DNA of 64,000 nucleotides from a virus: IMG/VR virus record IMGVR_UViG_3300028394_002328, positions 271,036-335,035 of that record; one strand, given 5' to 3'. The position numbers and the translations under genes were made by a program. Of the stretch, positions 28,290-63,986 are shown piece by piece (position 1 is the first letter of the stretch; each line of letters starts with the position of its first letter). The notes under the pieces are model-generated. The model searched no databases and was not told the origin of the DNA. It saw only the letters and a list, made by a program, of their open reading frames with translations.

Positions 28290-30671
28290 TTATCTCCTAT
28301 ACTGTTGTTCTATCATCTGTTGATGTAAACGGTCTGTTGATAACTGTCTTAACGCTCTAGCATTATCAACTGGGGTTTGGTTCTTATAGATTTCTTTTGG
28401 CTCATACATTTTGCCATCTTTAAGCATCAAATTAGTGTAGTTACTATAGCCAATTGGAGTAGTAGCCATCTTATTAATATCCACATTACCTGCTAGTTCA
28501 TTTGCTGCGACATTAGTTTTTACTTTTTGATTTGACTCCGTAGTAGAATTTGTAGTTACAATTGGTTTTGTTTCAACTACTTCATTAAGTGGGTCTGTGC
28601 GATTAGTCATAAAGCCTGCCGTACTGCTAACCTGTTCTACTTCTGTTTGTCTAGTAAAACTCACTTGCTGTGATGTGGTCTGCTGCTGTTCAACAGGTGC
28701 TGCTGCCATAGCATAAAACAAGGTGTTCTGCGGTTGTACATAGGCAAACGTCATAAAAGATTGTTGATCGGTTGAAGATTGTGAAAATACAGGTGTATTT
28801 GATGTAGTAATGATTGGAGTTACTGCGGTCGCCACTGTTGTATTAGCAGATTTGTTAGGTTGCGGGGGTAGACTACTTGTTACTGTAATTTGAACAGGTT
28901 GAGTTGATTGTACCCTGTTAAAATAAGTTTGAGCAGCAGATATCATGCTATATTGTGAATCATTAGCCGTTGTTGTAGTAGATGACACAGTAGTAACTAC
29001 GGGTGTAGATACTCTCAATGGGGCGGTTTGAACAGTTGTTGCCACAGTGGCAGATTTATTTTCGTTATTAAGGGGTGCTGCATTAACCATTGATAGACCT
29101 GATTGCGCTTGGCTAACAGGCGCACTCGCAGTGGCAGTGTTGGTTTGTCTTTGAGTCTGTACTGATGCATTGGACAGTGTTTGGCTCATTGTAACTGCGG
29201 CTGTAGCAACTGACACAGCCTGTTGTTGAGCCTTGTCACCGGCCGCTGTTGCTTCTGTTGTAGCCATTTGTACTGCGGAATTTTGTATTGCCTGTTCACG
29301 CTGTTGATTCTTAGCAATTATACTTAATGCTGCTGCTACAGTTTTGGATTGAGGACTGCCTTTGGCTGCTGTAGTATTGCTTGTTTGCTGTGGTGTTGAT
29401 TGAGCAATATTGGCAGTGGTAACAGCAGAAGTACTAGCTGTGGGTGGTTCCGCTATTGGAGTGGATGTTGTATTACTGGTACTAAGTTTGGCAGCCATTG
29501 CTTGAGCAAAGCCACTACAATCGGGACTATATAGTGGGTTCTTAACACAAGGATCTGGTGTATAAATCAGACTCATTGAATAATTGCCAATTGAAGAACC
29601 TATACCAGATGCCCCACCTGAAAGTCTAATATTACCAAGTGCGGATTGATTCATGCTACTTGATAGTAGTAGTTGTGAATTTACTGTTCCACTAGTGCCT
29701 TCACTATTGAAACTATGATTTCTTGAAATTATGGTTTGATTACTGCTATTGGTCATTGAGGCACTAGCACTGACATATGCTGGAGTGTTCATCACCCAAC
29801 TACACCCATCTTGATTCCAAGCAGTACATCCAAAGAACCCTTGCCCCACTGTATAATCAAATTTATAATTAAAGCCATGTACTGTAGCACCAAACCCAGC
29901 ACTTTTTAATGCTGTGTTAATAGCAACTACTTGAGTCATTGAAGTAGATACAGCATCAGGATTTGGGGCAAGATTACCGGTAGTTATTATGTTACCAAAT
30001 CCCGAGCAAATAGAACTGTAAGCAGGATTTAATTTACAAGGATCTACAGTGTATAGTAAATTAAAGCTATCAACATGTACTCTAGGCCCATAATATCCTG
30101 CCCAGTTGTTTTGATCCTTACCAGTAAAACTAACGGTTATACTACTAGCTGAGGCGATATCGTAGCGATTATTAAAAAATTGTGTACCCGAAAAAGTAGT
30201 AAAGTTTGGCAAGTTTTGATTATAGTCATAATTGAAACTTTCTACAATGTTACCAGTACTACCTTTTAAGGAAACGTTGCCGGTTAAAGTTCCTCTATTA
30301 CCCTGATAATTATTGAGGTCATTATTGATTTGCCACTGATAACGATATCCACTAAGTTGGACTCCTGCTCCAGAATTTGCCAATGCCTGATTAATCGCAA
30401 TTGTTTGACTTACTGTACGAGGAGCATTGCTAAAAATAATATTACCCGTCGAGGGATTATATGCGGGTGTAGGTCCACCACTCGTTCCACCTGCCTCACC
30501 AGTAACGGTATTGTTCCAAGGTAGTCCACCGCCCAAATTCAGTATATTGTTAGTACTGTTTAGGTTTAGACCTGTAACAGGGTCTATATTTTGACTATTA
30601 GTGGAAGCCGAATAACTTGAAAGCAACAATGCCCAACAAGCTACCGAGACCAATTTTCTTAAGGGTGTCAT
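28290..30671 (-). CDS. Exported two-domain protein with long low-complexity tail, 793 aa
   Basis: Signal peptide (ACWALLLSSYSAST), two related beta-rich domains of about 170 residues (near 85-225 and 235-385), each closed by YTxDPCxxNPxYSxxCSGF (residues near 210 and 370), then about 400 residues rich in Ala, Thr, Ser and Gln. The repeat motif with paired cysteines suggests disulfide-bonded exported domains. It overlaps the Asn-rich gene upstream by 74 bases. Virion or envelope role likely; function unknown. Confidence 0.65.
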   Translation of the reverse strand: MTPLRKLVSVACWALLLSSYSASTNSQNIDPVTGLNLNSTNNILNLGGGLPWNNTVTGEAGGTSGGPTPAYNPSTGNIIFSNAPRTVSQTIAINQALANSGAGVQLSGYRYQWQINNDLNNYQGNRGTLTGNVSLKGSTGNIVESFNYDYNQNLPNFTTFSGTQFFNNRYDIASASSITVSFTGKDQNNWAGYYGPRVHVDSFNLLYTVDPCKLNPAYSSICSGFGNIITTGNLAPNPDAVSTSMTQVVAINTALKSAGFGATVHGFNYKFDYTVGQGFFGCTAWNQDGCSWVMNTPAYVSASASMTNSSNQTIISRNHSFNSEGTSGTVNSQLLLSSSMNQSALGNIRLSGGASGIGSSIGNYSMSLIYTPDPCVKNPLYSPDCSGFAQAMAAKLSTSNTTSTPIAEPPTASTSAVTTANIAQSTPQQTSNTTAAKGSPQSKTVAAALSIIAKNQQREQAIQNSAVQMATTEATAAGDKAQQQAVSVATAAVTMSQTLSNASVQTQRQTNTATASAPVSQAQSGLSMVNAAPLNNENKSATVATTVQTAPLRVSTPVVTTVSSTTTTANDSQYSMISAAQTYFNRVQSTQPVQITVTSSLPPQPNKSANTTVATAVTPIITTSNTPVFSQSSTDQQSFMTFAYVQPQNTLFYAMAAAPVEQQQTTSQQVSFTRQTEVEQVSSTAGFMTNRTDPLNEVVETKPIVTTNSTTESNQKVKTNVAANELAGNVDINKMATTPIGYSNYTNLMLKDGKMYEPKEIYKNQTPVDNARALRQLSTDRLHQQMIEQQYRR

Positions 30672-32124
30672 CTTCTTTTACCTCTACTGCCACTGGCATT
30701 TTTTCTGGGTTGGCTTCCCATGCTGCTCGTGCCGCATCTCCAATTTTACCTTCATACGGGCAAGGTGTGCCTGCGCTCCACATAGCATCAAACACACGGC
30801 GATCCTGACACATTGTGGCAACTGCTGCTACCTTCATACCCATATCGTAAAGTGTTTTGGCTAACTTTAGTCTTTCGCAATTAACATCTCTAATAGTAGA
30901 ACCACTACTAACACCAAAGATTTGTGTTTGAACAGCACCACTTACACCAGTGGTACATAGGTCAGCATTACCACCACTCATCATAGTAGGAGCGATTGCT
31001 GTAGGAGGGGGTTGTATAACTCTTTGTGTAATCTCTGACGAATTAATATTTCGGTTAGTCATGTCACCAGTTTGTACATTTTGGTTGACATTGTTACTAT
31101 TATTAGTATTACTACTAGTACTTGAACTTAAACTAGTGTTTACATTGTTATTGTTGTTGGTCATTGTACCTGAGTTAATGTTATTATTGGTATTAACATT
31201 ACTGTTTGTGCTGGTGCTGTTATTAATATTTCTATTAGTCATGCTGCCACTAGTGATATTATTGTTAGTATTAACAGCAGTGCTAGTGCTTGCATTGTTA
31301 TTGTTATAAGTCATTGTGCCAGTATTAACATTCACGTTTCTGTTAGTACTTGTGCTGGTACTAACATTATTATTGTTATTGGTCATCGTACCATAATTGT
31401 AATTGGTACTGTTATTAGTATTGACATTTCTGCTTGTACTAGTATTAACATTTTTATTGACATTATTGCTAGTACTAGCGTTATTGTTATTGTATGTCAT
31501 TGTACCGCTGTTGATATTGTTGTTGGTATTGACATTGTTACTAGTACTAGTGCTGGTACTGGCATTATTGTTATTGTATGTCATTGTACCTGAATTAATA
31601 TTGTTATTGGTATTGACACTGGTACTTGTGTTGGTATTGATATTACGGTTAGTCATATCACCACTATTGACATTATTGTTGTTATATGTCATTGTACCAC
31701 TATTAACATTGTTATTGGTATTAACACTAGTACTAACGTTATTATTGTTGTTAGTCATTGTTCCAGTGTTCACATTGTTATTGTTATAAGTAACAGTTCC
31801 GCTGTTAACATTGTTATTGTTATTGTTATAAGTAACAGTTCCGCTGTTGACATTGTTGTTGGTAACCGTACCGCTTTGGATATTATTATTTGTATTAACG
31901 CTGGTATTGACGTTATTGCTGTTGCTGTTTACTGTACTAGTGCTCGTACTATTGCTGCTACTAGTACTGGTATTTGTTGTATTGACACTGCTGGTACTAT
32001 TACTAGTGCTATTAGTATCCACCAAAGTTTTAGAATCATAACTACCTTGATTAATTAAAGTTTGACTATAGGCCGTACCCGTAAAAAAGACGATACTGGT
32101 AGATACCAATATTTTTTTAAGCAT
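30598..32124 (-). CDS. Asn/Ser/Thr-rich exported repeat protein, 508 aa
   Basis: Signal peptide MLKKILVSTSIVFFTGTAYS, then about 310 residues built from Asn, Thr, Ser, Val and Gly in loose repeats such as NINSGTMTYNNNN and TSTSVNTNNN, then a globular end (residues about 370-490) with cysteines in DLCTTG, DVNCERL, MCQDRR and GTPCPYEGK, and a final hydrophobic segment (IGLGSLLGIVAFKLFGFH). I recall a related C-terminal domain in cyanophage-type T4-like proteins. The Asn repeats are exceptional and may form a beta-solenoid or an adhesive layer. Confidence 0.65.
   Translation of the reverse strand: MLKKILVSTSIVFFTGTAYSQTLINQGSYDSKTLVDTNSTSNSTSSVNTTNTSTSSSNSTSTSTVNSNSNNVNTSVNTNNNIQSGTVTNNNVNSGTVTYNNNNNNVNSGTVTYNNNNVNTGTMTNNNNNVSTSVNTNNNVNSGTMTYNNNNVNSGDMTNRNINTNTSTSVNTNNNINSGTMTYNNNNASTSTSTSNNVNTNNNINSGTMTYNNNNASTSNNVNKNVNTSTSRNVNTNNSTNYNYGTMTNNNNNVSTSTSTNRNVNVNTGTMTYNNNNASTSTAVNTNNNITSGSMTNRNINNSTSTNSNVNTNNNINSGTMTNNNNNVNTSLSSSTSSNTNNSNNVNQNVQTGDMTNRNINSSEITQRVIQPPPTAIAPTMMSGGNADLCTTGVSGAVQTQIFGVSSGSTIRDVNCERLKLAKTLYDMGMKVAAVATMCQDRRVFDAMWSAGTPCPYEGKIGDAARAAWEANPEKMPVAVEVKEDDTLKKIGLGSLLGIVAFKLFGFH
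31060..32000 (-). repeat. Degenerate coding repeats of AAT/AAC-rich units
   Basis: Imperfect tandem units of 30-40 bases around ATGACTTATAACAATAAC, encoding TMTYNNNN. Their mirror frames on the plus strand give false Leu/Val-rich ORFs. Confidence 0.8.
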
Positions 32125-34809: not shown

Positions 34810-36384
34810 TCAGAAACTCAATAATAGTAGCTGTCCACCTTCAATTAATTCAGCAGCATTAGCACCAGTTGCTGCTTTGTGATTTTGATCAACCAATAAG
34901 AAGTAACGCTTGCCATCAGTACGACCTAAGATACTGGTGATTTCAATGATACCACTGGATTCTTCGTCATTGGTCTCAGTTCCAACAACACCTGTGTAAT
35001 AATCACCAAACAGCTTCTCATCATGTTGAGCAAGTAGTGTTAGTGCCTTGGTAACAGGATTGTATCTCCAAATCTTACCATTGTGATTGTTACCACCCAC
35101 ATCTTCTTGTAGAATGATTGTGCCATCGCTAGCAACAGTCATGTTGTCAAACATCTGTGTGCCATGAACACGACCGGCAACAGTAACTGTTTCAGTACCA
35201 TCGAGCACCATTTCAAGGATACCACCCGATTCAGGACGGGTTAAATCAGTAAATGTCATGCTCCAAAGGCGTGTGCGACCAACTTGAGCAGTATTAGTAA
35301 TACTGGTATTGATCTTGCCCCCGGTGTTGTCTTTAGCAGCATCTACTGTGTTGGTTGTTACAAAGTAGTAGCGGTTCTTGTTAACTGTATCCCAAGCACC
35401 ATCTTCTGGACGCAAGAAACTTGTACCAGCAACACCAGTTACAGGAACATTGGGAACAAAACTAAATGTAGCAGTCTTGTTGACTAGTCCTAAACCAGCA
35501 TCAGTAGCAGTGGTTTCATTAGCAGCAACACCACCAACATTGACCACAGCACGATACAGCGTACCATTGGTTAGGCCTGCTTTATCAACTTCAGTAGCAC
35601 CAGTCTTGTTCTTAGTGCCGACATACATATAAACACCATTGCTGCCACTGTCGCTATTGGCCATAACAATGGTCTTATCGCCGCTGTTAGGATGTGCGAT
35701 TAGATTTTCCCAGCCTACACCAAATGTGGTAAATCCACCAAAGTGTGGGAGAATGTATGCTTTGCCTTTGTCTGCTCCACTAGCCACAATAGCAACACCC
35801 CGACCCATTGTAACAGTACCGTTAGCGGTTTCTTCACCAGTCATAAACATTTTAACCGAAGAACCATTGCCTGTTGCTGAGTTGAAGAAAGCGCCGGCTG
35901 CTGGTAGATCGGCTGAACAGAAACGCTGAAATGCTACAGCAGTTTGCTCGGCCCAAGCACCATTGACCTGTGCATAAACTTTTTTCATTAGGTCACTACC
36001 GCTCTTGACCTGTAGAGTAGTTTTATCAATAACCCACTCACTAACAAAAGCACCAATACCACCATGAGCACGGGCAATACCAACAGTGTTGGCCAGTTCA
36101 TGAGCCATTAGCACGGTGAATGTGTTGTCACCATTGTCGTAAGCACCTAGCCCATCCGGGATACCTACCATGCGATAAGTGCCAACAGCGTCACCAACGG
36201 TTAAGATACTGGCAACTTTTACGCTGCTGTCAATTGGTGTGATATAAGGATCTGCTGAACTACTAGTTGCTTTGCCTGATGTAAAACCAGTAACTTCTTT
36301 GGGTGCTGCTACAGTGGTGTCATCGCTACCACATGCTGTTAATAGAGCCGTTGCTACGGCTACTGCTAGAACGGTATATTTCAT
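34810..36384 (-). CDS. phoX: PhoX-family alkaline phosphatase, lipoprotein
   Basis: 524 aa DUF839 protein. N-terminal lipobox LLTACGSDD marks a lipoprotein. The beta-propeller carries RPEDGAWD (about residues 331-338) and DNMTVASDGTIILQEDVGG, the Ca/Fe-binding acidic motifs of PhoX. PhoX enzymes release phosphate from organic esters in the periplasm or at the surface and need Fe3+ and Ca2+. Located 25 bases after pstS, so both are read from the Pho-box promoter. A good Shine-Dalgarno (AAAAGGAG) precedes the ATG. Confidence 0.82.
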   Translation of the reverse strand: MKYTVLAVAVATALLTACGSDDTTVAAPKEVTGFTSGKATSSSADPYITPIDSSVKVASILTVGDAVGTYRMVGIPDGLGAYDNGDNTFTVLMAHELANTVGIARAHGGIGAFVSEWVIDKTTLQVKSGSDLMKKVYAQVNGAWAEQTAVAFQRFCSADLPAAGAFFNSATGNGSSVKMFMTGEETANGTVTMGRGVAIVASGADKGKAYILPHFGGFTTFGVGWENLIAHPNSGDKTIVMANSDSGSNGVYMYVGTKNKTGATEVDKAGLTNGTLYRAVVNVGGVAANETTATDAGLGLVNKTATFSFVPNVPVTGVAGTSFLRPEDGAWDTVNKNRYYFVTTNTVDAAKDNTGGKINTSITNTAQVGRTRLWSMTFTDLTRPESGGILEMVLDGTETVTVAGRVHGTQMFDNMTVASDGTIILQEDVGGNNHNGKIWRYNPVTKALTLLAQHDEKLFGDYYTGVVGTETNDEESSGIIEITSILGRTDGKRYFLLVDQNHKAATGANAAELIEGGQLLLLSF

Positions 36385-36409
36385 TTTAAAACTCCTTTTG
36401 TATGTTTGT

Positions 36410-37390
36410 TTATTTGACTAACTTTGCCCAATCGGCACGAACTTGATCCTTAACCTTTTGGGGTAATGGAACATAATCTAGGTCTGTAGCGTCCTTGTCA
36501 CCCTTTGTATAGACCCAATCAAAAAATTTGGTAACTTGTTTTGTTCGCTCTCCAGTAGGATATATGAGAATAAATGTAGCGGCAGTAATAGGCCATCCAT
36601 CTAAATCATTGAGATTAACTGCCATGTTGGGCACTGACCAGTCAGCAGTCTTGGCACTTTCAGCAAATGTTAAGTCATCTGGTTGAACTACAGCACCTTT
36701 GCGGTTCTTCATGGCCACATGAGTTAGTTTGCTCTGTTTAGCAAATGCGTACTCAACATAACCAATTGATCCTGCCAGTTGTTGAACGTTGGCAGCAACA
36801 CCAGCATTGCCCTTACCTGCTGACAAGTTTGTGGGCTTCCAAGTAACTGTTTTACCCGTACCGGTACCTGCTTTAAAATCAGGATTTACTTTGCTTAAGT
36901 AATCAGTAAACACAGCAGTTGTACCTGATCCATCAGCACGAACCACTACGTTGATAGCAGCATCAGGTAATGCTAGACTTGGATTGAGTTTTGTAATAGC
37001 AGCATCGTTCCACTTGCTGATTTTACCTTGATAAATGTCGGCTAGTGTCTTGCCATCAAGAATCATTTTACCTGGCTCAATACCTTTGATATTGATTACA
37101 GCAACAACTCCACCGATAACTGATGGGAATTGATATAGCCCAACTTCTTTTAATTTATTGTCTGGTGTAGGATCATCACTTGCACCAAAATCTACGGTTT
37201 TAGCAATGATTTGAGCAACACCACCGCCACTTCCGATTGGATTGTAGTTAACAGTAGTACCAGTTTCTTTGTTGTAGGCTGCTGCCCATTTTGAATAAAT
37301 AGGAGCCGGGAAAGTTGCCCCGGCTCCAGTAATCTGTGCTTGTGCAGCAAATGCGGCTGCGGCTAATAGAATTCCAACAATTTTCTTCAT
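36410..37390 (-). CDS. pstS: Phosphate ABC transporter substrate-binding protein PstS
   Basis: 326 aa with signal peptide MKKIVGILLAAAAFAAQA. Family landmarks: ITGAGATFPAPIYSKW, NPIGSGGGVAQI, VDFGASDDPTP and VVVRADGSGTTAVFTDYL, all phosphate-contacting loops. Binds periplasmic phosphate for the host PstCAB permease, which is absent here. Phage pstS is known in cyanophages; here it is paired with phoX and preceded by a Pho box at 37446. Length is normal. Confidence 0.95.
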   Translation of the reverse strand: MKKIVGILLAAAAFAAQAQITGAGATFPAPIYSKWAAAYNKETGTTVNYNPIGSGGGVAQIIAKTVDFGASDDPTPDNKLKEVGLYQFPSVIGGVVAVINIKGIEPGKMILDGKTLADIYQGKISKWNDAAITKLNPSLALPDAAINVVVRADGSGTTAVFTDYLSKVNPDFKAGTGTGKTVTWKPTNLSAGKGNAGVAANVQQLAGSIGYVEYAFAKQSKLTHVAMKNRKGAVVQPDDLTFAESAKTADWSVPNMAVNLNDLDGWPITAATFILIYPTGERTKQVTKFFDWVYTKGDKDATDLDYVPLPQKVKDQVRADWAKLVK

Positions 37391-37445
37391 TTGATTTCCT
37401 TTAATAATATGTGCTCTTGCACAATTATTATTTAATAATAATTAT

Positions 37446-37463
37446 GTTACAGGAATATTACAA
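37446..37463 (-). promoter_or_regulatory. Pho box (PhoB site) upstream of pstS
   Basis: TTGTAAT-ATTC-CTGTAAC: two 7-base direct repeats each matching 5 of 7 of CTGTCAT, with the exact 4-base spacing of the PhoB consensus, 56 bases before the pstS start. An AT-rich -10 region (TATTAT/TTAAAT) follows. The leader also holds a GTGC-AAGA-GCAC hairpin. Confidence 0.7.
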
Positions 37464-37494
37464 GGCGCCCAAAATGAATAATATTTTTAAAACT

Positions 37495-37878
37495 TTATTG
37501 AACAGTCCGTTTTGATTTGTAATCTTCTATTGCCGATTTAATCGCATCTTCTGCTAAGATTGAGCAGTGGATTTTGACTGGCGGGAGAGCGAGTTCTTCC
37601 GCAATCTGTGTGTTTCTAATTGTTGCTGCCTCGTCGAGGGTTTTGCCTTTAACCCACTCTGTGACAAGACTTGAGCTAGCAATCGCTGACCCGCACCCAT
37701 ACGTTTTAAATCTAGCATCTTCTATTACTCCATTCTCATTTACTTTAATTTGAAGTTTCATCACATCTCCGCATGCCGGGGCTCCGACTAGTCCGGTGCC
37801 TATTGTATCGTCAATTTCAAATTTTCCAACATTGCGTGGGTTTTCATAATGATCAACTACTTGAGGTGAATAAGCCAT
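37495..37878 (-). CDS. iscU: IscU iron-sulfur cluster scaffold
   Basis: 127 aa, full-length. The three cluster cysteines C36, C62 and C105, the D38 next to the first, and the LPPVK chaperone motif (98-102, bound by HscA) are all intact. IscU assembles [2Fe-2S] and [4Fe-4S] clusters received from IscS and hands them to apo-proteins. No other isc gene is present, so it must use host IscS and HscAB. Strong ribosome site (AAAAGGAGAACAAC). Many Fe-S enzymes of this phage could be clients. Confidence 0.95.
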   Translation of the reverse strand: MAYSPQVVDHYENPRNVGKFEIDDTIGTGLVGAPACGDVMKLQIKVNENGVIEDARFKTYGCGSAIASSSLVTEWVKGKTLDEAATIRNTQIAEELALPPVKIHCSILAEDAIKSAIEDYKSKRTVQ

Positions 37879-38426: not shown

Positions 38427-38741
38427 TTACTTAAAATAGATAAGTACCAATGCCATTGCTTGTAGCATAAATCCTACACCAATAGTAGCGATATTAAGTA
38501 AATCTTTGAGCAAAATAGCACGAAAGAATAACAAACATAGAGCGGACCACAACATCAAAACAACATCTACATTGGGTGCTTTGTCAGTTAACCCTGTCAT
38601 CAAGGCTAAAAACGAAGGTAGTGTAGCCGCATGAAGCGCAATATTAGCTAACCACCCTAGCGTGTCCGCAGAAATTTTGTGTAACTTAGTGGTAAGAAAT
38701 TCAATTAAAAATGTATAAAGGTCTACTAACTTGGTCATCAT
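38427..38741 (-). CDS. Small membrane protein, holin candidate
   Basis: 104 aa with three hydrophobic segments (about 31-50, 57-73 and 81-101) and charged ends. Start overlaps the stop of the SleB-type hydrolase (adjacent ATGATG). Size, topology and position next to a cell-wall hydrolase fit a class I holin, but no family is recognised. It could instead be a generic membrane protein. Confidence 0.5.
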   Translation of the reverse strand: MMTKLVDLYTFLIEFLTTKLHKISADTLGWLANIALHAATLPSFLALMTGLTDKAPNVDVVLMLWSALCLLFFRAILLKDLLNIATIGVGFMLQAMALVLIYFK

Positions 38742-39286
38742 GCTTTATCCTTGTAAAAAATATGGTTACCGATTTTGTTGATTTTTTGATATGGCCATGC
38801 CGGGTGAACATATACAGCATGATAATACAATGCATCATGTAAACTGTCAAGTCTAAACCCTTCTAACAACACTTTTTTGGCTACCGCATAACTTTCTTTA
38901 TATGCTTCGTCCGTGGGTTTAGATTTAGTCTTACCTATGCAATACCAGCTAAATTGACATACTACTTTTTCCATGATGACGTTCTTTTGGTAAACTACAG
39001 CACATACATCTTTAGGAAATCTAGGATCGTCTACACGGTTAAGGGTCACTTGAGCAACCGCAACCTTACCTTCAAATGATTCCTGAGCCGCTTCTTTGTA
39101 AATATTCATAGCCAAACAATCTAATGTTCTGTCTACATTTTTTGCTGACACATATGACCGTGGTTTGTCCAAAGCAACTTCTTGAACAGAACCAAACTTA
39201 AAAGCGGTTACTGCATTAATAAGTACAGCAAGTAATAGCACGCCGAAAATGCTATTAATCGTTCTGATTGAAAATTCCATTTTCAA
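38738..39286 (-). CDS. SleB-type cell wall hydrolase, endolysin candidate
   Basis: 182 aa of the Hydrolase_2 (SleB) family: NIYKEAAQESFEGKVAVAQVTLNRV with catalytic E65, then VVCQFSWYCIGK and YYHAVYVHPAW. A single N-terminal hydrophobic segment (about 10-29) suggests a signal-anchor (SAR-like) protein exported by the Sec system. SleB enzymes are lytic transglycosylases. Overlaps the holin-like gene. It is the best lysin candidate in the window. Ribosome site AAGGAGTTG. Confidence 0.78.
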   Translation of the reverse strand: MKMEFSIRTINSIFGVLLLAVLINAVTAFKFGSVQEVALDKPRSYVSAKNVDRTLDCLAMNIYKEAAQESFEGKVAVAQVTLNRVDDPRFPKDVCAVVYQKNVIMEKVVCQFSWYCIGKTKSKPTDEAYKESYAVAKKVLLEGFRLDSLHDALYYHAVYVHPAWPYQKINKIGNHIFYKDKA

Positions 39287-39360: not shown

Positions 39361-41112
39361 TTAGTCTATCCAACAATCGCAGTTGCACTTGATAACTTCT
39401 TCAATTGCATCTGCTACATTGTAGACTGATGGTGACAAAACTGATGCGGTCAATGCCGCATTTAGATTTGGTGGAATAATATTGCTGGCATTTGAACCAG
39501 CTAGACTTCCTGGTACAGCAGGGCCCCCAATATCAAGAGGCGTACCCTGCGAGCTTGGCCCATTAGTTATAACTGCAATGGGTTCTAATCCAGCTGGTCC
39601 GGCTTCTAAAATCGCAGATACTAACCCGGGTCTAGGGTTAACTGAGGGTTTAGCGATTCCATTGGCAGTAGAAGTTGTAGGTGATATGATTGGTTGAGCT
39701 GGTCCAGTTCCATTCTTAGCTGGCCCTAATAAATTTTTATTATTAGGATTACTTCGTGCTGTATTTAAAATCTGTTTAATAGGCGATATAGTCTGAGTTG
39801 TTGCTAATTTAAATTGAGTAGTATTAGGATCGTAATAGCCAATTGGCTGAGCAGATGAGTTGCTAGGCAGAGTAAAAGTAGTTGATGGATTATCCATGTC
39901 CCCGTTGATACCCGTAACTGTAATTCCCTCTATACCTGTAGGTAGTGTTCCATTAGAAATTAAAATTTCTACCTCTTGTTGATCCAATTCACCTGGTATA
40001 TTATTATCCAATTCTATACCAATCTCTTGTAATCTAGCACCATTTCTTTCCTGTCTCATCATTGCTACAATACTCTGACCACCAACTGTGGTTAGATCAC
40101 TGATAGCTTCCAATGTTTGAGCATACATGTGGGGTAACGTACTTTTTGCAATAGTAGGGATCGAGTCAACAAATACATACTGACTAGTTGGATACAAATT
40201 TAACCAAGTATCACGAGTAGGACTAGGTACCGGGGGTATTCCTGTATATCTACTTCGTTGTTCTATTGTAAGTTGTGTGCCAAATGCATCATATATAGTA
40301 TTTAAATCTACGCTAAGTATAGGATTAATAGTTCGTATAACTGCTATCTCTGCATTAGCAGCATCAATATAATATTGTACTGCTGTATTCATTCCAGGCC
40401 ATCCTGCACTACCATAAGTAGTTGGAGGATTGGCTATTGTTCCTGTAGGCACTACTACCGTAATAGGACCAGCTGAAGTTAATGCAACGGAAGTTATTCT
40501 GCCGTAAGTAGCTACATCATTGGGATCCGTACCAATAGTAGTACTACCTGTCCCGCCATTACTCAATGTAATGCTAGGTGCGGCTGCACCTTCTCTACCA
40601 TACCCTCCACCTGAATCAACTAGTGTGATTCCTGTAACTGTGTAATTCCCAAACCCATCATTAGTATATTGAACAGAAACAGTACCAACTTCCCACGTAA
40701 CCGCTAGATATAAATTTTTATAAGTGTTGACTAGAGTAGTAGTTTGTAATGATTGAATGCCTGATTGAATATCATTCCATGCATATGGTAACCCACTCAT
40801 ACATCCTAAAAAGTCACTCATAGTATATGCGCCATATGGTCCACTTCCTAATGCAACTAAGTTGTACGCTGTTGTAGATAAATCAGTATTAGTTGGTACA
40901 TTTGTACCATTAACTTGATCTAACCCTTTTGTTGTTTCAATATTAAAAACTACTTGAGAAAATTTTTCAAAATCAACATTTCGGATGTTTCTAATTTGCT
41001 GCATAGTAGCAGAAAAGGCTCCAGCAGTTACAGCAATCTCGTCAGGTAATATTCCTGATAGATAGGAGCCAAAGCCTTCTTTTGCTACTTGAAAATTTAA
41101 TGTATCTGCCAT
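39361..41112 (-). CDS. Virion structural protein, putative, 583 aa
   Basis: Large protein with no signal peptide, Gly/Thr/Ser/Pro-rich C-terminal half (PAQPIISPTTSTANG...) and a short Cys-rich end (CNCDCWID). The segment SGGGYGREGAAAPSITLSNG resembles a repeated beta motif common in phage tail proteins. Located directly after the Hint protein and PAAR, so likely a tail or baseplate part. Family not recognised. Confidence 0.6.
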   Translation of the reverse strand: MADTLNFQVAKEGFGSYLSGILPDEIAVTAGAFSATMQQIRNIRNVDFEKFSQVVFNIETTKGLDQVNGTNVPTNTDLSTTAYNLVALGSGPYGAYTMSDFLGCMSGLPYAWNDIQSGIQSLQTTTLVNTYKNLYLAVTWEVGTVSVQYTNDGFGNYTVTGITLVDSGGGYGREGAAAPSITLSNGGTGSTTIGTDPNDVATYGRITSVALTSAGPITVVVPTGTIANPPTTYGSAGWPGMNTAVQYYIDAANAEIAVIRTINPILSVDLNTIYDAFGTQLTIEQRSRYTGIPPVPSPTRDTWLNLYPTSQYVFVDSIPTIAKSTLPHMYAQTLEAISDLTTVGGQSIVAMMRQERNGARLQEIGIELDNNIPGELDQQEVEILISNGTLPTGIEGITVTGINGDMDNPSTTFTLPSNSSAQPIGYYDPNTTQFKLATTQTISPIKQILNTARSNPNNKNLLGPAKNGTGPAQPIISPTTSTANGIAKPSVNPRPGLVSAILEAGPAGLEPIAVITNGPSSQGTPLDIGGPAVPGSLAGSNASNIIPPNLNAALTASVLSPSVYNVADAIEEVIKCNCDCWID

Positions 41113-41114
41113 GA

Positions 41115-42845
41115 TTAATTTAGAACCTCATTAACACCAATCACCAGTTTGACATTATGCGATACCAATCCTTCTGTCAAATAAGTATGAGCATCTGCTA
41201 CAGTAATTTTTACGACTTCTCCAAAAGAATGTGGTTTAGCATACTTCACCACTGCTAACTTATTATGAGCCGTAATAATATCACCTGGCATTAACCTTTC
41301 AATTTCAATCCAACCTTCTTCAGTTAACATTCTATGGTTAGGTGATCCAACCAATTTAATATCATCAATTCCGACTTCCCAACGATTAGCATCTTCAAAT
41401 GATACCGCAGTTACAGGGTAGTCCCCCCACTCTTTAGTTGTTTCGTGTTGAGTATAAACTAACATACCTTCTTTAATGTCTTTAGCAGGTATTGAAGTTC
41501 TATCTGCTAATGTAATATTGATCCACGGTGCAGGACATCCACCTCCCCTATACTGTCCAGTCGGCGCAGCTTCTGGCACAAATCGTTCAAGCGGAACTGC
41601 GGTTGGTGCTACTTCAGGTGGTATTGGGGTAGGAGGTTCTACTATAGCAGGAGGACCAGGTGGAATAATTACACCGATTTGCTCAACTATCGCAGGTGCT
41701 TCTAACCTAGAACTTACTGAACCATTATCAAATATAGGATAATATGTTTTAGCGTTAGTAGGACCAGGATTAGCATTGTAAATAGGCACAGTCAATGATT
41801 GATAACTATTTGGAAATAACTTCTTAATGTTTAGTAAATCTGCCAATGACTCTAATCCTTGAGTTTTGCAATTCAACGGTATTAGTATGTCAGCTAAATC
41901 CTGTCCTACAATAATTAAAAATGCCCCATATATCTGTTGCTCTTGTAATTTTGTAGGTGTTAACATTCTTCCACTAGAAATGTCATCTATATCTTGTGTT
42001 GAAAGTCCTGCTGATAATAAGGCTAATGATAACGATTGAGTAATAGAATTATATTTCTTAATAGTTTGCAATAGTACAGAAGGCATTCCAAACTTGAGTA
42101 TCTTAGATAAATCTATTACTTTACCTGCGGTAATACAGTCTTGACCAAATGCTTGTGTTGCTAGGCTTACCCCAGTTACATCAGCACTGATTAGATCGTT
42201 CATATTACTATAAGTGCCTTTAAGGAACTTAGTAGAACCCTGCAATGCGTTGATAGTAGTATTAGAATAGTCTATAAAATTTTGAGAGGCTAGGAAGCTT
42301 GACAAAAAATCTTTATATTCCGGCATACCTGAACCTGCTACGATGCCATTCCAATTAAATTCATTCCAAGCCTGTAATGCATACAATCTTAAAAAGCCCC
42401 ATTGGGTAACACTTTTATTATTGTTGGTCGTATCATATGGAATCCAAGTTGCACTTTGTCCATCACCAGTATCACTTGCAGTTGAATAACCAGTAGTAGC
42501 TTGTCCTTGCCATTGATTAGTAGGATCATCAGTAGTGTATCCAAGGCTTTTTGAATTACCTAATGCTGGAATAATATCCTTACCTATAGCAATTAAATTG
42601 TCATAGGTCGAAGTTCCAGCAGGAGTTTGAGAAACACTACCGTTATATGCTTGATTTATTGCGTAAGTTAATAATTTAAGGCATGTATTGTTGACTAGAC
42701 TACCCGGGGTATGACTAGCATTGGTCTTGCTAGTCCCTATATAGCCTTGATTAGTAGAATTAATGCATAGACCTATATTTTGTAACAAGGAACTATTTAC
42801 ATTGACACCCAGTGGACTTTGTTTACCTGTAGTACTCATGGGCAA
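41115..42845 (-). CDS. Virion protein with C-terminal Hint (intein-like) domain, 576 aa
   Basis: Residues 1-390 form a unique structural part, 391-430 a Pro-rich linker, and 437-564 a Hint domain: GGGC437PAPWINITLADRT (block A cysteine), GSPNHRMLTEEG with H504 (block B), and HTYLTEGLVSHN (block G, H563-N564). After N564 comes Val, not Cys/Ser/Thr, plus 12 residues, so protein splicing is unlikely; cleavage as in bacterial intein-like domains is possible. ATGA overlap with PAAR upstream suggests a spike-associated tail protein. No homing-endonuclease insert. Confidence 0.82.
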   Translation of the reverse strand: MPMSTTGKQSPLGVNVNSSLLQNIGLCINSTNQGYIGTSKTNASHTPGSLVNNTCLKLLTYAINQAYNGSVSQTPAGTSTYDNLIAIGKDIIPALGNSKSLGYTTDDPTNQWQGQATTGYSTASDTGDGQSATWIPYDTTNNNKSVTQWGFLRLYALQAWNEFNWNGIVAGSGMPEYKDFLSSFLASQNFIDYSNTTINALQGSTKFLKGTYSNMNDLISADVTGVSLATQAFGQDCITAGKVIDLSKILKFGMPSVLLQTIKKYNSITQSLSLALLSAGLSTQDIDDISSGRMLTPTKLQEQQIYGAFLIIVGQDLADILIPLNCKTQGLESLADLLNIKKLFPNSYQSLTVPIYNANPGPTNAKTYYPIFDNGSVSSRLEAPAIVEQIGVIIPPGPPAIVEPPTPIPPEVAPTAVPLERFVPEAAPTGQYRGGGCPAPWINITLADRTSIPAKDIKEGMLVYTQHETTKEWGDYPVTAVSFEDANRWEVGIDDIKLVGSPNHRMLTEEGWIEIERLMPGDIITAHNKLAVVKYAKPHSFGEVVKITVADAHTYLTEGLVSHNVKLVIGVNEVLN

Positions 42846-43117
42846 TATACATCCGAACTACCTTGTACAATAGGATGACCGCATGTATTACCTGAACCAG
42901 TACGAAGTACTGGTTCACCCTCAGCAAAAACAGTAGGACTACCTTCTGTAGTTCTAGCGGCATTGTGAGGAGGATGTGGTTTACCAAACGGAGCATGAGG
43001 TGTCATTACACTTACATGTAACCCTACAGGCATGCCATTAGCGAACACCGTGCCGGCGCCTCGCATGATTTTTCCGCCTGCTGAATTTGCATCACCCTGT
43101 CTGCTCAATTGCGCCAT
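42836..43117 (-). CDS. PAAR-domain tail spike tip protein
   Basis: 93 aa. Gly-rich beta repeats with conserved VFANGMPVGLHVSVMTPH and TVFAEGEPVLRTGSGNTCGH and His/Cys metal ligands (H43?, H54, C78, H80 region) fit the PAAR family, the sharpened tip of phage and T6SS spikes (T4 gp5.4 analogue). Overlaps the Hint protein start by ATGA. Confidence 0.85.
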   Translation of the reverse strand: MAQLSRQGDANSAGGKIMRGAGTVFANGMPVGLHVSVMTPHAPFGKPHPPHNAARTTEGSPTVFAEGEPVLRTGSGNTCGHPIVQGSSDVYCP

Positions 43118-59480: not shown

Positions 59481-59488
59481 TATTTATT
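59481..59488 (-). promoter_or_regulatory. Late promoter motif, leaderless type
   Basis: AATAAATA, CATT, ATG at 59476. Overlaps the stop codon of the upstream tail gene. Confidence 0.6.
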
Positions 59489-62400
59489 AAACTTTAGTGT
59501 ACTTCAATAAATCACTTTGGGTATTGTTGCTCTCGGATAACTCATTAATCATATCGTCTAATCTAGAAATCATTACATCAAATTTATCTGTAAGCATTTC
59601 TATTATCCTGTCATTAATGTCAGTTCCGGTGACCGTAGCAGTAGTAGTTGTGCTTTCTATTGGTTGAGAAGCGGGAGTCGTTGCTAATTTTTCTAATATA
59701 GAATTAGCGTCTAATGGAGCAGTAATTTCTCTACCATGATGTTCTACTGGATAACCTGTCATAGGTCCATCAAAGATACCTCCCAGTTCAGCTTGAGGTA
59801 TTTCACCTGATCGTAATTTGCCTGAGAAACCTTGTGCAAGTTGCATTCTTTTTTGTGTTTCGGCTTGTCCTCCGGCATATCCAACAGATTTACCAACTTG
59901 TTCAATATTACCAAGATCGACCCCACGAGATTGTTTTTCTTTAAAATATACAGCAGCTAATTTAGCCGCTATATCCGGGTCATTAGCTAAATCCGGATCT
60001 TTTACTAAATCAACACCTATAAGATTTCCATATTTTTCATAATTACTTTTACCGGTAAGTTGTATTAATCCTCGCCCTCTATATTTGTATCCTTCATCAG
60101 CAGCATTGCCCATTCTGCCGCCGTATATTACATTACCAACTGCTTCAGGGCCCTTATCTACTACACTTTGTGCTTCTTCTAATGATCTAAAACGAACTTT
60201 ATTTCCACTACCCGGACCATATAACCTAAGTAATGTTTGTGCGCTGTATTTACCAACATCTTCTGATCTAGCTTTAAAGCCAGATTCGGCTTGCACTTGT
60301 GCCATAAGATTAGAAACAGAACCAGTATCTGATATACCCTGTTTTTTTAATTCTGCTAAAAATTTGTTTTGTTGTTCGCCACTGGTCGCTGTTGGTTGAG
60401 ATCCTGATGACAATCTAGCACCCATGTTGCTAAAAAATCCACCTCCACTTGCACCACCAGTAGATCCACTTGCACCACCAGTAGATCCACTTGCACCACC
60501 AGTAGATCCGCCTGAACCCCCGGCACCTCCACTACCAAGCTGCCCTGTTACTACTTTTATTTGTTTAGTAAAATTGTTTAAATCAAAAAATGCGTTTTTA
60601 ACCCCGCCGGTAATTCCAGCTGTACCATCAACAAACTGTTCAAGTTTCTCAGTTTCTTCTTCTTTTAGTTCTAATTGTTCGTCTAGTTCTGTATTCCATT
60701 TATTAAGATTGCCTATTAACTTTTTTAGTATAGCGTCAGAATCTTTTAAATTCTTGTTAAACGCTTCAGTATTTTCTTTTTCTTCTTTACTATCTGCTGA
60801 ATTTTGATCAGCGTTATTTTGCAATCCATCAGGTAATTCTGTTTTTGATGATAAAGGGATCACTGCCTCGTTACCGTGTAATTCAACAGGATAACCAGAT
60901 TTAGGACCACTGAATATACCACCTTCAGCAGCTTTAGGTACTAGTTTGACCGCTTCTTGATTTTTCTTTTCTTGAGCAATTGCCCCATCTAAGGTTCTCA
61001 ACATCTCTTCGTAAGATTGTTTACTCTGTAGAGAATTGGTTCTTGGTCCTTTTTCTTCAAGTTTTTTTCTTTGTCTTTCAAGTTCTTCTATTTTTTCCTG
61101 ACCCTGTAACTCCCTTTCATTTTGTTTAACTGTAGAAGTGGTAGAAGCAGTAGATGCTAAGGTAGATGTTGTAGTATTAAATGATTTAGTCACTGCAGGA
61201 GGCGCTGCCGCTACATCAAAATTTGAATTAACTTTAGTTTTTTGTTCTAAAGAATTAATTGCTTTGTCCAATGAATTCATGGTTTCTTTCCATGATATTG
61301 CATCTTTTGTTGTATTAGTTTTAGGGCCTCTCTCTAACAGTTTTGCTCTGTCAGCTAACATTTTTTTAAGTTCAGTAGCTGGGTCAACTGCCGAAGAATC
61401 AGGTTGGTTCTCTGTTGGTTTCTGTTCAAAGGATGATGCCGGTCTATTTGACATTTTTCCTAATTCTGCTTTAGCCTTAGCTAACTCATCTATTGCTTTT
61501 TTCTGATCAGCCTCTCGTCCAAATCCCATTTTTTGAGTAAGGGATGCAGTTTCCATAGACTTTGCATATTTGGCTTCAGCTTCTACAATTTTTTGTTTGG
61601 CTTTTTGAATCGCCTCTTCTTTTTTAGCTTGAGCCTCTTTATTTTTTTCCTCTTTCTTTTGAAGCTCTTCTTCTTTATTTTTAATTTTTTCTTTTGCTGC
61701 TTTCTCTACTTCTAACTCTTTTAACTTCTCTTCCCAATATTTTATACCTCTGGCCGCTGCCGCTTTTTCCTCAGCAGTTGTAGCATTTTTCTGATCGGCA
61801 ATGGCAGCATCTTGTTTAGCCTTAGCATCTACTATTTCTTTTTCTTTTTCTGCAAGATCACTTTTTGCGGTATCTAGAGTAGATACTTTTTCACCAAGTT
61901 TTTCTCCTAGTAATTGTCCACCTTTACCACCTAACCAACCACCTAATGCACCGCCTATAGCAGTCCCTATACCAGGTAATATCGCAGTTCCGATCGCTGC
62001 ACCTATCAGTGTTCCAGATGCAGTTCCTGCACCTTCACCTAATGCGCCGCCTTTCTTTTTGTTAGCTTCTTCTTCGGTGATCTTTCCTTCTTTTAATTCT
62101 TTAGAAGCGTCTTGGTATCCGCTATAGGCTTGATATGCTCCCACAACTGCGCCCATTCCCGCTGTACCGGCAGTAGATCCTAATACTTTGCCAACCGATC
62201 CCAATGTTTTGGTTAATGCTGACATACTTGATGACAACGACGATGCAGCAGCCGTTGCTGCAGGTGCAGCAGCAGGTGCAGCGGCACTAGCAGGAATTAA
62301 CAGCCCACTTGCCGATTTTACAAAGCCAGATGCAGCAGGTGCAGCACCTGCTGCTCCGGGAAGTGCACCTGCTGCTGCACCTAACCGACCCATACCCGTA

Positions 62401-63986
62401 GCCTGAGCAAGAGCGTTAGTACCTGAGGCTACTAAACTGTTTCCAAATTTAGCAAGACCAATAGTTACTAATCCAGTTAATGCAGCACTAGCAAATCCAA
62501 TAGCTAGTGTCATTCTATCAAAGCCAGCAATTAAAGGATTTCCTGCAAGTACTATCTCATCAAACTTTGTTGCAACCTGAATTTCCGCAGTGACCATTTT
62601 GGCTCTGGTATCCTGCATAGGATCTTTACCAGCTTCTTTTTGTGCTTTGATTTTAGCTTCAGCTTCTTTTTTAGCGGCTACTTCATCTTTTTCTCTTCTA
62701 CCACCTAAAAATTGTAAAAATTCTTTAGAGTAACCAAATGATTCCCTTACTTCTTTGTTATGCATTGCAGAAACGCCAACATTCTGTAAGGTTTGATCAC
62801 CTTGTTTTTTTAGAGAATTCAAGAATTCTTGTGTTACATCTTCACCATTTTTTATGCGTCTTGCAAATTCCTCAATAGGCACGCCCATTCTTGCAAGCAT
62901 TGCACTTTCTTGGGTTACCGCGCCAGTAGCCAAGAATTTGGACATGGCATCGACCATCTTAGGATCTTTAACTTGGTTTTGAATACCTACCAATAAAGCA
63001 TCTCTAGCCTTTAGTTCTGCTTCTAATTTCTTTGCTCTTTCTTCATCTAACGGAAGACCTGTTTTGCGTAAACGATTGATTTCCATTTCCATTAAATTGG
63101 TTTGGATCAATGTTTCTTCCCTACTTAATGCAGCTTCATTTTCCTTCTTAATTGTTTCAATATCTTTTCCGCTTAAAGCACTAAGTGTTAACAGATTATC
63201 AGTATATTCTAATGAAGCTTTTCTTAAAGAGGCTTCGTCTTTATTTCGTGCGCTAAGATTTCTTCCTGAGATAGTCTGAAGTTTTATATAATCTGCTTGA
63301 TTTTGTATTAACTCCCCTTGACTTACACCTAATCTAAGATATTCTTCTCTTTGTTGATTAGTAATTGAAGTTAGTCTACCAAATGCTTTAGTGCCGTCAC
63401 CTACGGTATTACCCAATGAGACTAGACCTGAGCCCATACTTTGCAGTGGTCTAACTAATAAGTCTAAATTTTTACTAGTAACTCCAGATTGGTGTGCTAA
63501 CTTAAGTAATTCTTCACCGGTCATTGCACCGGCATTTCCAAATTTAGATAATTGATCAGAGGCTTTTAATACATTGTCCGCTTGAGTTAAATAAGCACTA
63601 CCTACTTTAGCAATGCCTTGCGTGAGTATTCCTAAGCCTTTGCCAAGCAAGCCAAAATTATTAAGTACACTAGTAGAACCATTTGCCAAGCTAGTTAATG
63701 TACTTTCATATTTAGAATATGACCTTTCCCCGCTAAGTACAGCTTTTGAAAATGACTCTACTGCGGCTTGTCCATGATCAAGACCAGCCTTAAAGTTAGT
63801 CATAGCCTCATTATATTTTTTAGCAGCTTCCTGACTATCTTGTTGTACTCGGGTATACCCTCGTGTAGCATTGCCTAAACCATCAAAAGCTTGAGCCTGA
63901 CCCTTAATATTATTCTCAAGGTTCATCTTTGCTAATTGCTCTTTAGGCACCATGGCCATGTTGAAAGTTAACAGAGAATTCAACAT
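59487..63986 (-). CDS. Large tail (tape-measure-like) protein with GH19 lysozyme domain
   Basis: At least 1499 aa; the frame stays open to the window edge, so the start may lie beyond it. Long helical N-terminal half, an Ala/Gly hydrophobic stretch (around residue 670, IGTAILPGIGTAIGGALGGW), a charged coiled coil (about 700-860), two GGIFxGPxxGYPVExHG repeats (near 1025 and 1405) and a GH19-type domain between them (AESGF, YKYRGRGLIQLTGKSNY, about 1220-1390) with catalytic Glu. This suits a tape measure that also opens peptidoglycan on injection. It lies next to gp20, which is not the T4 gp29 place. Confidence 0.75.
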   Translation of the reverse strand: MLNSLLTFNMAMVPKEQLAKMNLENNIKGQAQAFDGLGNATRGYTRVQQDSQEAAKKYNEAMTNFKAGLDHGQAAVESFSKAVLSGERSYSKYESTLTSLANGSTSVLNNFGLLGKGLGILTQGIAKVGSAYLTQADNVLKASDQLSKFGNAGAMTGEELLKLAHQSGVTSKNLDLLVRPLQSMGSGLVSLGNTVGDGTKAFGRLTSITNQQREEYLRLGVSQGELIQNQADYIKLQTISGRNLSARNKDEASLRKASLEYTDNLLTLSALSGKDIETIKKENEAALSREETLIQTNLMEMEINRLRKTGLPLDEERAKKLEAELKARDALLVGIQNQVKDPKMVDAMSKFLATGAVTQESAMLARMGVPIEEFARRIKNGEDVTQEFLNSLKKQGDQTLQNVGVSAMHNKEVRESFGYSKEFLQFLGGRREKDEVAAKKEAEAKIKAQKEAGKDPMQDTRAKMVTAEIQVATKFDEIVLAGNPLIAGFDRMTLAIGFASAALTGLVTIGLAKFGNSLVASGTNALAQATGMGRLGAAAGALPGAAGAAPAASGFVKSASGLLIPASAAAPAAAPAATAAASSLSSSMSALTKTLGSVGKVLGSTAGTAGMGAVVGAYQAYSGYQDASKELKEGKITEEEANKKKGGALGEGAGTASGTLIGAAIGTAILPGIGTAIGGALGGWLGGKGGQLLGEKLGEKVSTLDTAKSDLAEKEKEIVDAKAKQDAAIADQKNATTAEEKAAAARGIKYWEEKLKELEVEKAAKEKIKNKEEELQKKEEKNKEAQAKKEEAIQKAKQKIVEAEAKYAKSMETASLTQKMGFGREADQKKAIDELAKAKAELGKMSNRPASSFEQKPTENQPDSSAVDPATELKKMLADRAKLLERGPKTNTTKDAISWKETMNSLDKAINSLEQKTKVNSNFDVAAAPPAVTKSFNTTTSTLASTASTTSTVKQNERELQGQEKIEELERQRKKLEEKGPRTNSLQSKQSYEEMLRTLDGAIAQEKKNQEAVKLVPKAAEGGIFSGPKSGYPVELHGNEAVIPLSSKTELPDGLQNNADQNSADSKEEKENTEAFNKNLKDSDAILKKLIGNLNKWNTELDEQLELKEEETEKLEQFVDGTAGITGGVKNAFFDLNNFTKQIKVVTGQLGSGGAGGSGGSTGGASGSTGGASGSTGGASGGGFFSNMGARLSSGSQPTATSGEQQNKFLAELKKQGISDTGSVSNLMAQVQAESGFKARSEDVGKYSAQTLLRLYGPGSGNKVRFRSLEEAQSVVDKGPEAVGNVIYGGRMGNAADEGYKYRGRGLIQLTGKSNYEKYGNLIGVDLVKDPDLANDPDIAAKLAAVYFKEKQSRGVDLGNIEQVGKSVGYAGGQAETQKRMQLAQGFSGKLRSGEIPQAELGGIFDGPMTGYPVEHHGREITAPLDANSILEKLATTPASQPIESTTTTATVTGTDINDRIIEMLTDKFDVMISRLDDMINELSESNNTQSDLLKYTKV
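60451..60513 (-). repeat. In-frame tandem repeats of 21 bases (three copies)
   Basis: Repeat unit encodes GGASGST, a flexible Gly/Ser linker just before the GH19 domain. Likely length-variable by slippage. Confidence 0.8.

Follow-up and report, generated by a model that had tools for sequence, protein, structure and literature searches.

The window analysed here, the last 64 kb (64,000 nucleotides) of a 335,035-base virus record, carries a gene whose product ends in a Hint domain. From its sequence and by analogy with characterized domains, we tentatively interpret this domain as a BIL-like Hint cassette on the C-terminus of a phage protein, and consider it quite possible that Lys564, two residues past the predicted cut site, acts as the splicing acceptor. 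The portal encoded in the window is ~52% identical to portals of T4-like jumbo phages (e.g., Agrobacterium phage Atu_ph07).

The open reading frame lies on the minus strand and begins either at a TTG (42845-41115, 576 aa) or at an ATG two codons later (42839-41115, 574 aa). The ATG is much the more likely start given its sequence context, as its overlap with the stop codon of the PAAR gene upstream gives ATGA, and alignments with homologues begin at the same Met. The 574-aa numbering was therefore adopted. In this numbering, C435, H502, H561-N562 and V563 (followed by K564) correspond to C437, H504, H563-N564 and V565 counted from the TTG, N562 and N564 being the same residue. An earlier note on this DNA, which counted from the TTG, described an intact core of C437, H504 and H563-N564, then Val and a 12-residue tail; all of these positions are exact, and translation and family alignment bear out the intact core.

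Residues 1-395 (41655-42839) form a host protein domain, here called the N-half. A Pro-rich linker (residues 396-434; 41538-41654), recognized from the sequence and the family alignment, places Gly-Gly-Gly directly before Cys435. The Hint domain, delimited by alignment, profile, model and dN/dS, extends from Cys435 to Asn562 (41154-41537) and belongs to what we term the 'CPAPW' family, or Hint A. It includes the predicted thioester-forming residue Cys435 (41535-41537), the block B His502 (41334-41336) and the C-terminal cleavage motif His561-Asn562 (41154-41159). The 12-residue C-terminal tail, VKLVIGVNEVLN (41118-41153), begins with Val563-Lys564; the codon for Lys564, the proposed source of the acceptor amine, is at 41148-41150. 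All of these features are on the minus strand. Within the tail codons also lies a GAGG ribosome-binding site that serves the gene that follows. Retention of the tail solely for this purpose would fit the window, but not those carriers of a second Hint family (Hint B, below) that have the site past the stop codon.

Matches of the whole protein to known Hint models are weak (Pfam PT-HINT, E 0.025; TIGR01443, E 0.026; Mtu RecA intein, E 0.008). Scanned alone, the domain exceeds the TIGR01443 cut-off (16.7 vs. 15.6 bits). The PT-HINT gathering score of 27.7 bits is reached neither by the whole protein (15.3) nor by the domain (19.4); some relatives do exceed it. A profile of 17 family members matches a DnaX mini-intein (6e-13), the Tetrahymena BUBL1 BIL2 (5e-11), the BIL domain 2lwy (3e-10) and many other inteins. 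The AlphaFold2 model of the Hint domain has a pLDDT of 86, with the N-terminal flank and the tail disordered. A Foldseek search with this model ranked BIL2 (6y75) first (TM 0.81, E 8e-11), followed by the Npu DnaB, gp41-1 and Mtu RecA inteins, with Hedgehog lower. All 17 aligned members have Cys1, the block B His, an AHTY motif and HN. Comparison of the window with two relatives that have 88% identical Hint domains gives dN/dS values of 0.07-0.08 for the Hint and 0.07 for the N-half. By sequence and model the Hint domain is real, its predicted catalytic residues are intact and it is under purifying selection; chance is excluded.

The domain shares with type A BIL domains a Hint fold, an N-terminal Cys, block B His and C-terminal His-Asn, and no Cys, Ser or Thr at +1. 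Resemblance to the C. thermocellum BIL (2lwy) extends to the fold as a whole (TM 0.77; profile E 3e-10). Differences from that group are the location of the window family on phage proteins, the Lys at +1 or +2 of nearly all members and, in the window, a C-terminal placement in which GGG precedes the domain and a 12-residue tail follows it. The accessible BIL literature contains no statement of Lys as a BIL trait. Class 1 mini-inteins (Mtu RecA, Npu DnaB, Spl DnaX and phage TerL inteins) share the fold and the catalytic Cys, His and Asn, but have Cys, Ser or Thr at +1 and interrupt conserved enzymes, whereas the window Hint has Val563 at +1 and ends a variable structural-type protein that stops 12 residues later.

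Lack of Cys, Ser or Thr at +1 is, from the sequences compared, a family trait. It holds for 39 of 43 distinct domains in the Hint A set (distinct meaning 90% identity clusters); the remainder comprises three inteins and L235, which has T K. Neither Cys nor Ser occurs at +1 in any Hint A domain on a phage structural-type protein; Cys, Ser or Thr is present there in related inteins of TerL and of other phage genes. What the earlier note overlooked is the Lys close to this site. Lys occurs at +1 to +3 in 37 of the 39 distinct domains and at +1 or +2 in 35 (at +1 in 23, at +2 in 14), and is rare further along the tails. When residues were shuffled within tails (20,000 trials), Lys at +1 or +2 was found in 8.5 of the 39 on average and in 18 at most. 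Clustering at 60% identity leaves 18 of 20 clusters in conformity. The rule also holds in 19 of 20 distinct domains found after the idea was set down, and the alignment-based scan patterns left out the +1 and +2 positions. The two exceptions among the 39 are an L107 copy that has lost Cys1 and L214, with Lys at +4. The 39 domains are related by descent, and thus the count speaks for constraint rather than 39 independent events. Arg is found at +1 in one domain and at +2 in two. The near absence of Lys-to-Arg exchange favors a role as nucleophile over one of charge. Similarly, the residue stays Lys even as its position shifts among +1, +2 and +3, as would be expected of a long flexible nucleophile more than of a charge. 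The tail itself evolves fast, as in close relatives with 83% identical Hint domains that have QKAVIDTNVVLA and VKSTERTNMELF.

These observations bear on the statement in the earlier note that splicing needs Cys, Ser or Thr at +1. That requirement is overly strict. Even when no +1 nucleophile is present, type A BIL domains with HN can splice: they form a thioester, undergo Asn cyclisation and sometimes ligate by amine attack, with cleavage dominating (PMC4031507). BIL2 is likewise reported to splice without such a residue, by forming an isopeptide bond to Lys, and to be able to transfer its N-flanking domain to other proteins (PMC8616854). BIL2 is the best structural match to the window Hint, and so splicing should not be excluded. 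Autoprocessing by cleavage or thioester transfer, as the earlier note proposed, remains the natural expectation for a BIL-like domain. By analogy with BIL2, Lys564 may be the acceptor, in which case the tail would be joined rather than released.

In the proposed reaction, Cys435 would take the Gly434 carbonyl as a thioester, the Lys564 amine would attack this thioester in place of a Cys, Ser or Thr side chain, and cyclisation of Asn562 would let the Hint leave. The product would be a host protein ending in GGG, linked by an isopeptide bond to Lys564 and carrying the 12-residue tail. Hydrolysis, i.e., plain cleavage, would give a side or alternative product, and the activated GGG thioester could in principle pass to a lysine of another protein. 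The residues named are read directly from the sequence; every step of the reaction is proposed by analogy. The Hedgehog autoprocessing domain (1at0, 6tyy; TM 0.75) shares the fold and hands a thioester formed at a Gly-Cys junction to an outside nucleophile, as proposed here, although its acceptor is cholesterol and it lacks C-terminal HN cleavage. BIL2, from the Tetrahymena BUBL1 polyubiquitin locus (6y75, 6tmm), has the closest fold, but is eukaryotic and only ~20% identical to the window Hint, and sits on a ubiquitin-like host protein.

At least 222 IMG/VR stretches contain the N-half, and the gene order around it is almost always NrdB, glutaredoxin, small protein, PAAR, N-half, C-half, cell-wall hydrolase. 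In the window, the gene for the PAAR-repeat (spike-tip) protein (42836-43117) is directly upstream, as in 76 of 81 relatives. The C-half gene (39361-41112) is downstream, followed by the cell wall hydrolase (Hydrolase_2; 38738-39286) in the same position as in relatives; all are on the minus strand. The C-half begins Met-Ala, without an N-terminal Cys, and ends CNCDCW. No known family was identified for either half among Pfam, PHROGs, PDB sequences and annotated phages. AlphaFold2 modelled the whole protein poorly (pLDDT 47), and a fold search, which gave two uncultured-phage matches, therefore says nothing about function. We nevertheless infer from the sequence context that the host protein is a tail protein, because of the PAAR and hydrolase neighbors and because Hint A also ends gpJ-like tail proteins (Phage-tail_3, L095). 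A C-terminal Hint is likewise present in the L185 protein of Anaeromyxobacter sp. PSR-1, a cultivable host; this protein is closely related to the gpJ-like L095. The same designation in the earlier note is stated too firmly, as only locus and related carriers point to it. Several N-half proteins (L127, L130, L134, L140, L142, L137 and L124) have ~80-230 residues inserted near residue 75-100. Elsewhere in the window, PhoX-like, PstS-like and IscU-like genes (34810-37878; read by eye) adjoin the structural locus, a 1499-aa tape-measure-like protein (59487-63986) has an embedded GH19 chitinase/lysozyme domain, and two low-complexity, secreted-looking proteins, one of Asn/Ser/Thr-rich repeats, are encoded on the same strand (28290-32124).

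N-half and C-half form a single open reading frame in 28 distinct relatives and are separate in 48. Hint domains are confined to the separate form (25 of 48, leaving 23 distinct relatives without one) and are always at the N-half end. Hint-bearing relatives are over-represented in these counts because some were found via Hint searches. The N-half tree has at least two changes between split and fusion. An intein within an interrupted host protein was considered and rejected, since no relative combines a Hint and the C-half in one reading frame.

Two Hint families use the same site at the N-half end: Hint A, the window type, and Hint B (GGGGGCV...HHN), whose relationship is supported by hhalign (E 4e-8). 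In Hint B, Cys1 follows at least four Gly and HHN is kept; nearly all members have Ala for the block B His ('CSTTAP'). The +1 residue is mostly Val and Lys is absent at +1 and +2. The tail is 12-13 residues long and usually ends ...DKK or ...EKN, with Lys at +11 or +12. Hint B (GGGGGCV(V/A)LES...HHN) also occurs on several unrelated large phage proteins (L118-L167, e.g., L118:1969-6483). Relatives were identified in the isolates Xanthomonas PhiXhv-15, XacN1 and Stenotrophomonas DLP6. In Stenotrophomonas phage DLP6 (L170:3-1652), an unannotated open frame near neck genes encodes a C-terminal Hint ending YSHNVTKQIP. The main text of the XacN1 virion proteomics paper makes no mention of ORF231, the XacN1 protein with such a cassette.

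Sequence comparisons indicate that the Hint domain is a mobile cassette, and three observations lead to this conclusion. Hint A also terminates or interrupts unrelated phage proteins, most CPAPW-Hints being on proteins without a C-half-type partner gene. In close relatives the same gene may or may not carry a cassette: L074 (Hint B) and L066 (no Hint) have flanks 98% and 97% identical with 523 vs. 85 nt between them, and the window and L006 have flanks 86% and 83% identical with 530 vs. 130 nt between them. Well-supported branches of the N-half tree force at least four changes of Hint state, in which gain and loss are indistinguishable. The near-identical L066 gene does not have the Hint B cassette, and the host protein there therefore manages without it. 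These pairs make it improbable that the Hint is an obligatory maturation step of its host protein; judged by sequence, this is unlikely for the L066/L074 gene and less likely for the window gene. Hint A and Hint B occur in tandem on one N-half protein (L136:4111-6477), joined by KYTTGGGGG, and four Hint A domains occur in one protein of L104 (3331-6846; also in L107). Of the L104 domains, the first has Cys1 with RT in place of HN, the second has HN but no Cys1, and the last two are intact. Judging from their sequences, the first two seem to have decayed in complementary ways into a single unit of double length.

Several points count against Lys564 as acceptor. In BIL2 the acceptor is a Lys of the ubiquitin-like domain that follows rather than one at +1 or +2. 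Lys could help Asn cyclisation or form part of a binding motif. Hint B, which has no block B His and no Lys at +1 or +2, occupies the same site on the same protein, and no gain for the phage from joining a 12-residue tail is evident. The main rival, and the main prediction of the earlier note, is plain double cleavage, in which hydrolysis of the Gly434-Cys435 thioester and Asn562 cyclisation would free both Hint and tail, leave a GGG end and give Lys merely a supporting part in Asn cyclisation. Type A BIL domains react mainly by cleavage (PMC4031507; PMC7664689), and the disorder and rapid change of the tail are in keeping with it. By itself, however, it does not account for Lys, not Arg, at +1, +2 or +3 in 37 of 39 domains, and we consider it somewhat unlikely. 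Transfer of the GGG thioester to an amine of another protein, for instance another virion subunit or the N-terminus of the C-half (rebuilding a single chain), is appreciably less probable. The restriction of Hint domains to relatives with split halves, the Gly-rich stretch before Cys and the ability of BIL2 to conjugate its N-flanking domain to other substrates (PMC8616854) are consistent with such transfer. Yet the 23 distinct split relatives without a Hint indicate that rejoining is not required, L066 and L074 differ mainly by the cassette, the C-half offers Met-Ala rather than an N-terminal Cys, and most CPAPW-Hints have no such partner gene.

A chemically silent Hint fold, retained as a structural or binding unit, is very unlikely. 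Arrays in other phages do include copies without Cys1 or HN (L104), but these are exceptional, and few positions are as well conserved as Cys1, block B His, HN and Lys. Still less probable is a selfish mini-intein remnant that spreads among phage genes without benefit to the phage. The unrelated carriers, the recent presence/absence pairs and the changes of state on the N-half tree are as expected for such an element, whereas the lack of a homing endonuclease, the strong purifying selection, the fixed Lys and the constant position after a small residue, mostly Gly, Ser or Thr, are not. A pretoxin-type Hint that frees a C-terminal effector has the smallest probability of all. PT-HINT (PF07591) of polymorphic toxins is the best Pfam model for the window Hint and a PAAR gene is upstream, but only 12 residues and no toxin domain follow the Hint, and the next gene is the C-half rather than an immunity-type partner. 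The pretoxin reading was rejected on account of the 12-residue tail.

A BIL-like Hint cassette is of a known kind; phage-wide mobility with a fixed Lys by the cut site is undescribed in the open literature searched. No paper on C-terminal Hint cassettes of phage proteins was found in a search limited to open-licence literature. It is possible, although somewhat more doubtful than the reading of the window domain itself, that these domains form a phage-borne Hint class in which a Lys side chain beside the C-terminal Asn is the splicing nucleophile. Such a mobile cassette would cap structural proteins by isopeptide bonds or give a Gly-thioester to a partner Lys, and so act as an E1-free conjugation module. 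The same gene exists both with and without a cassette, and the function of a BIL domain thereby becomes testable. If the Lys rule reflects chemistry, nature offers, in these phages, a large collection of small domains for joining proteins via Lys without ATP or a Cys scar, a kind of joining otherwise known to us from one ciliate locus only (PMC8616854). Phages would then have a route for self-processing of their proteins apart from proteases and S74 chaperones.
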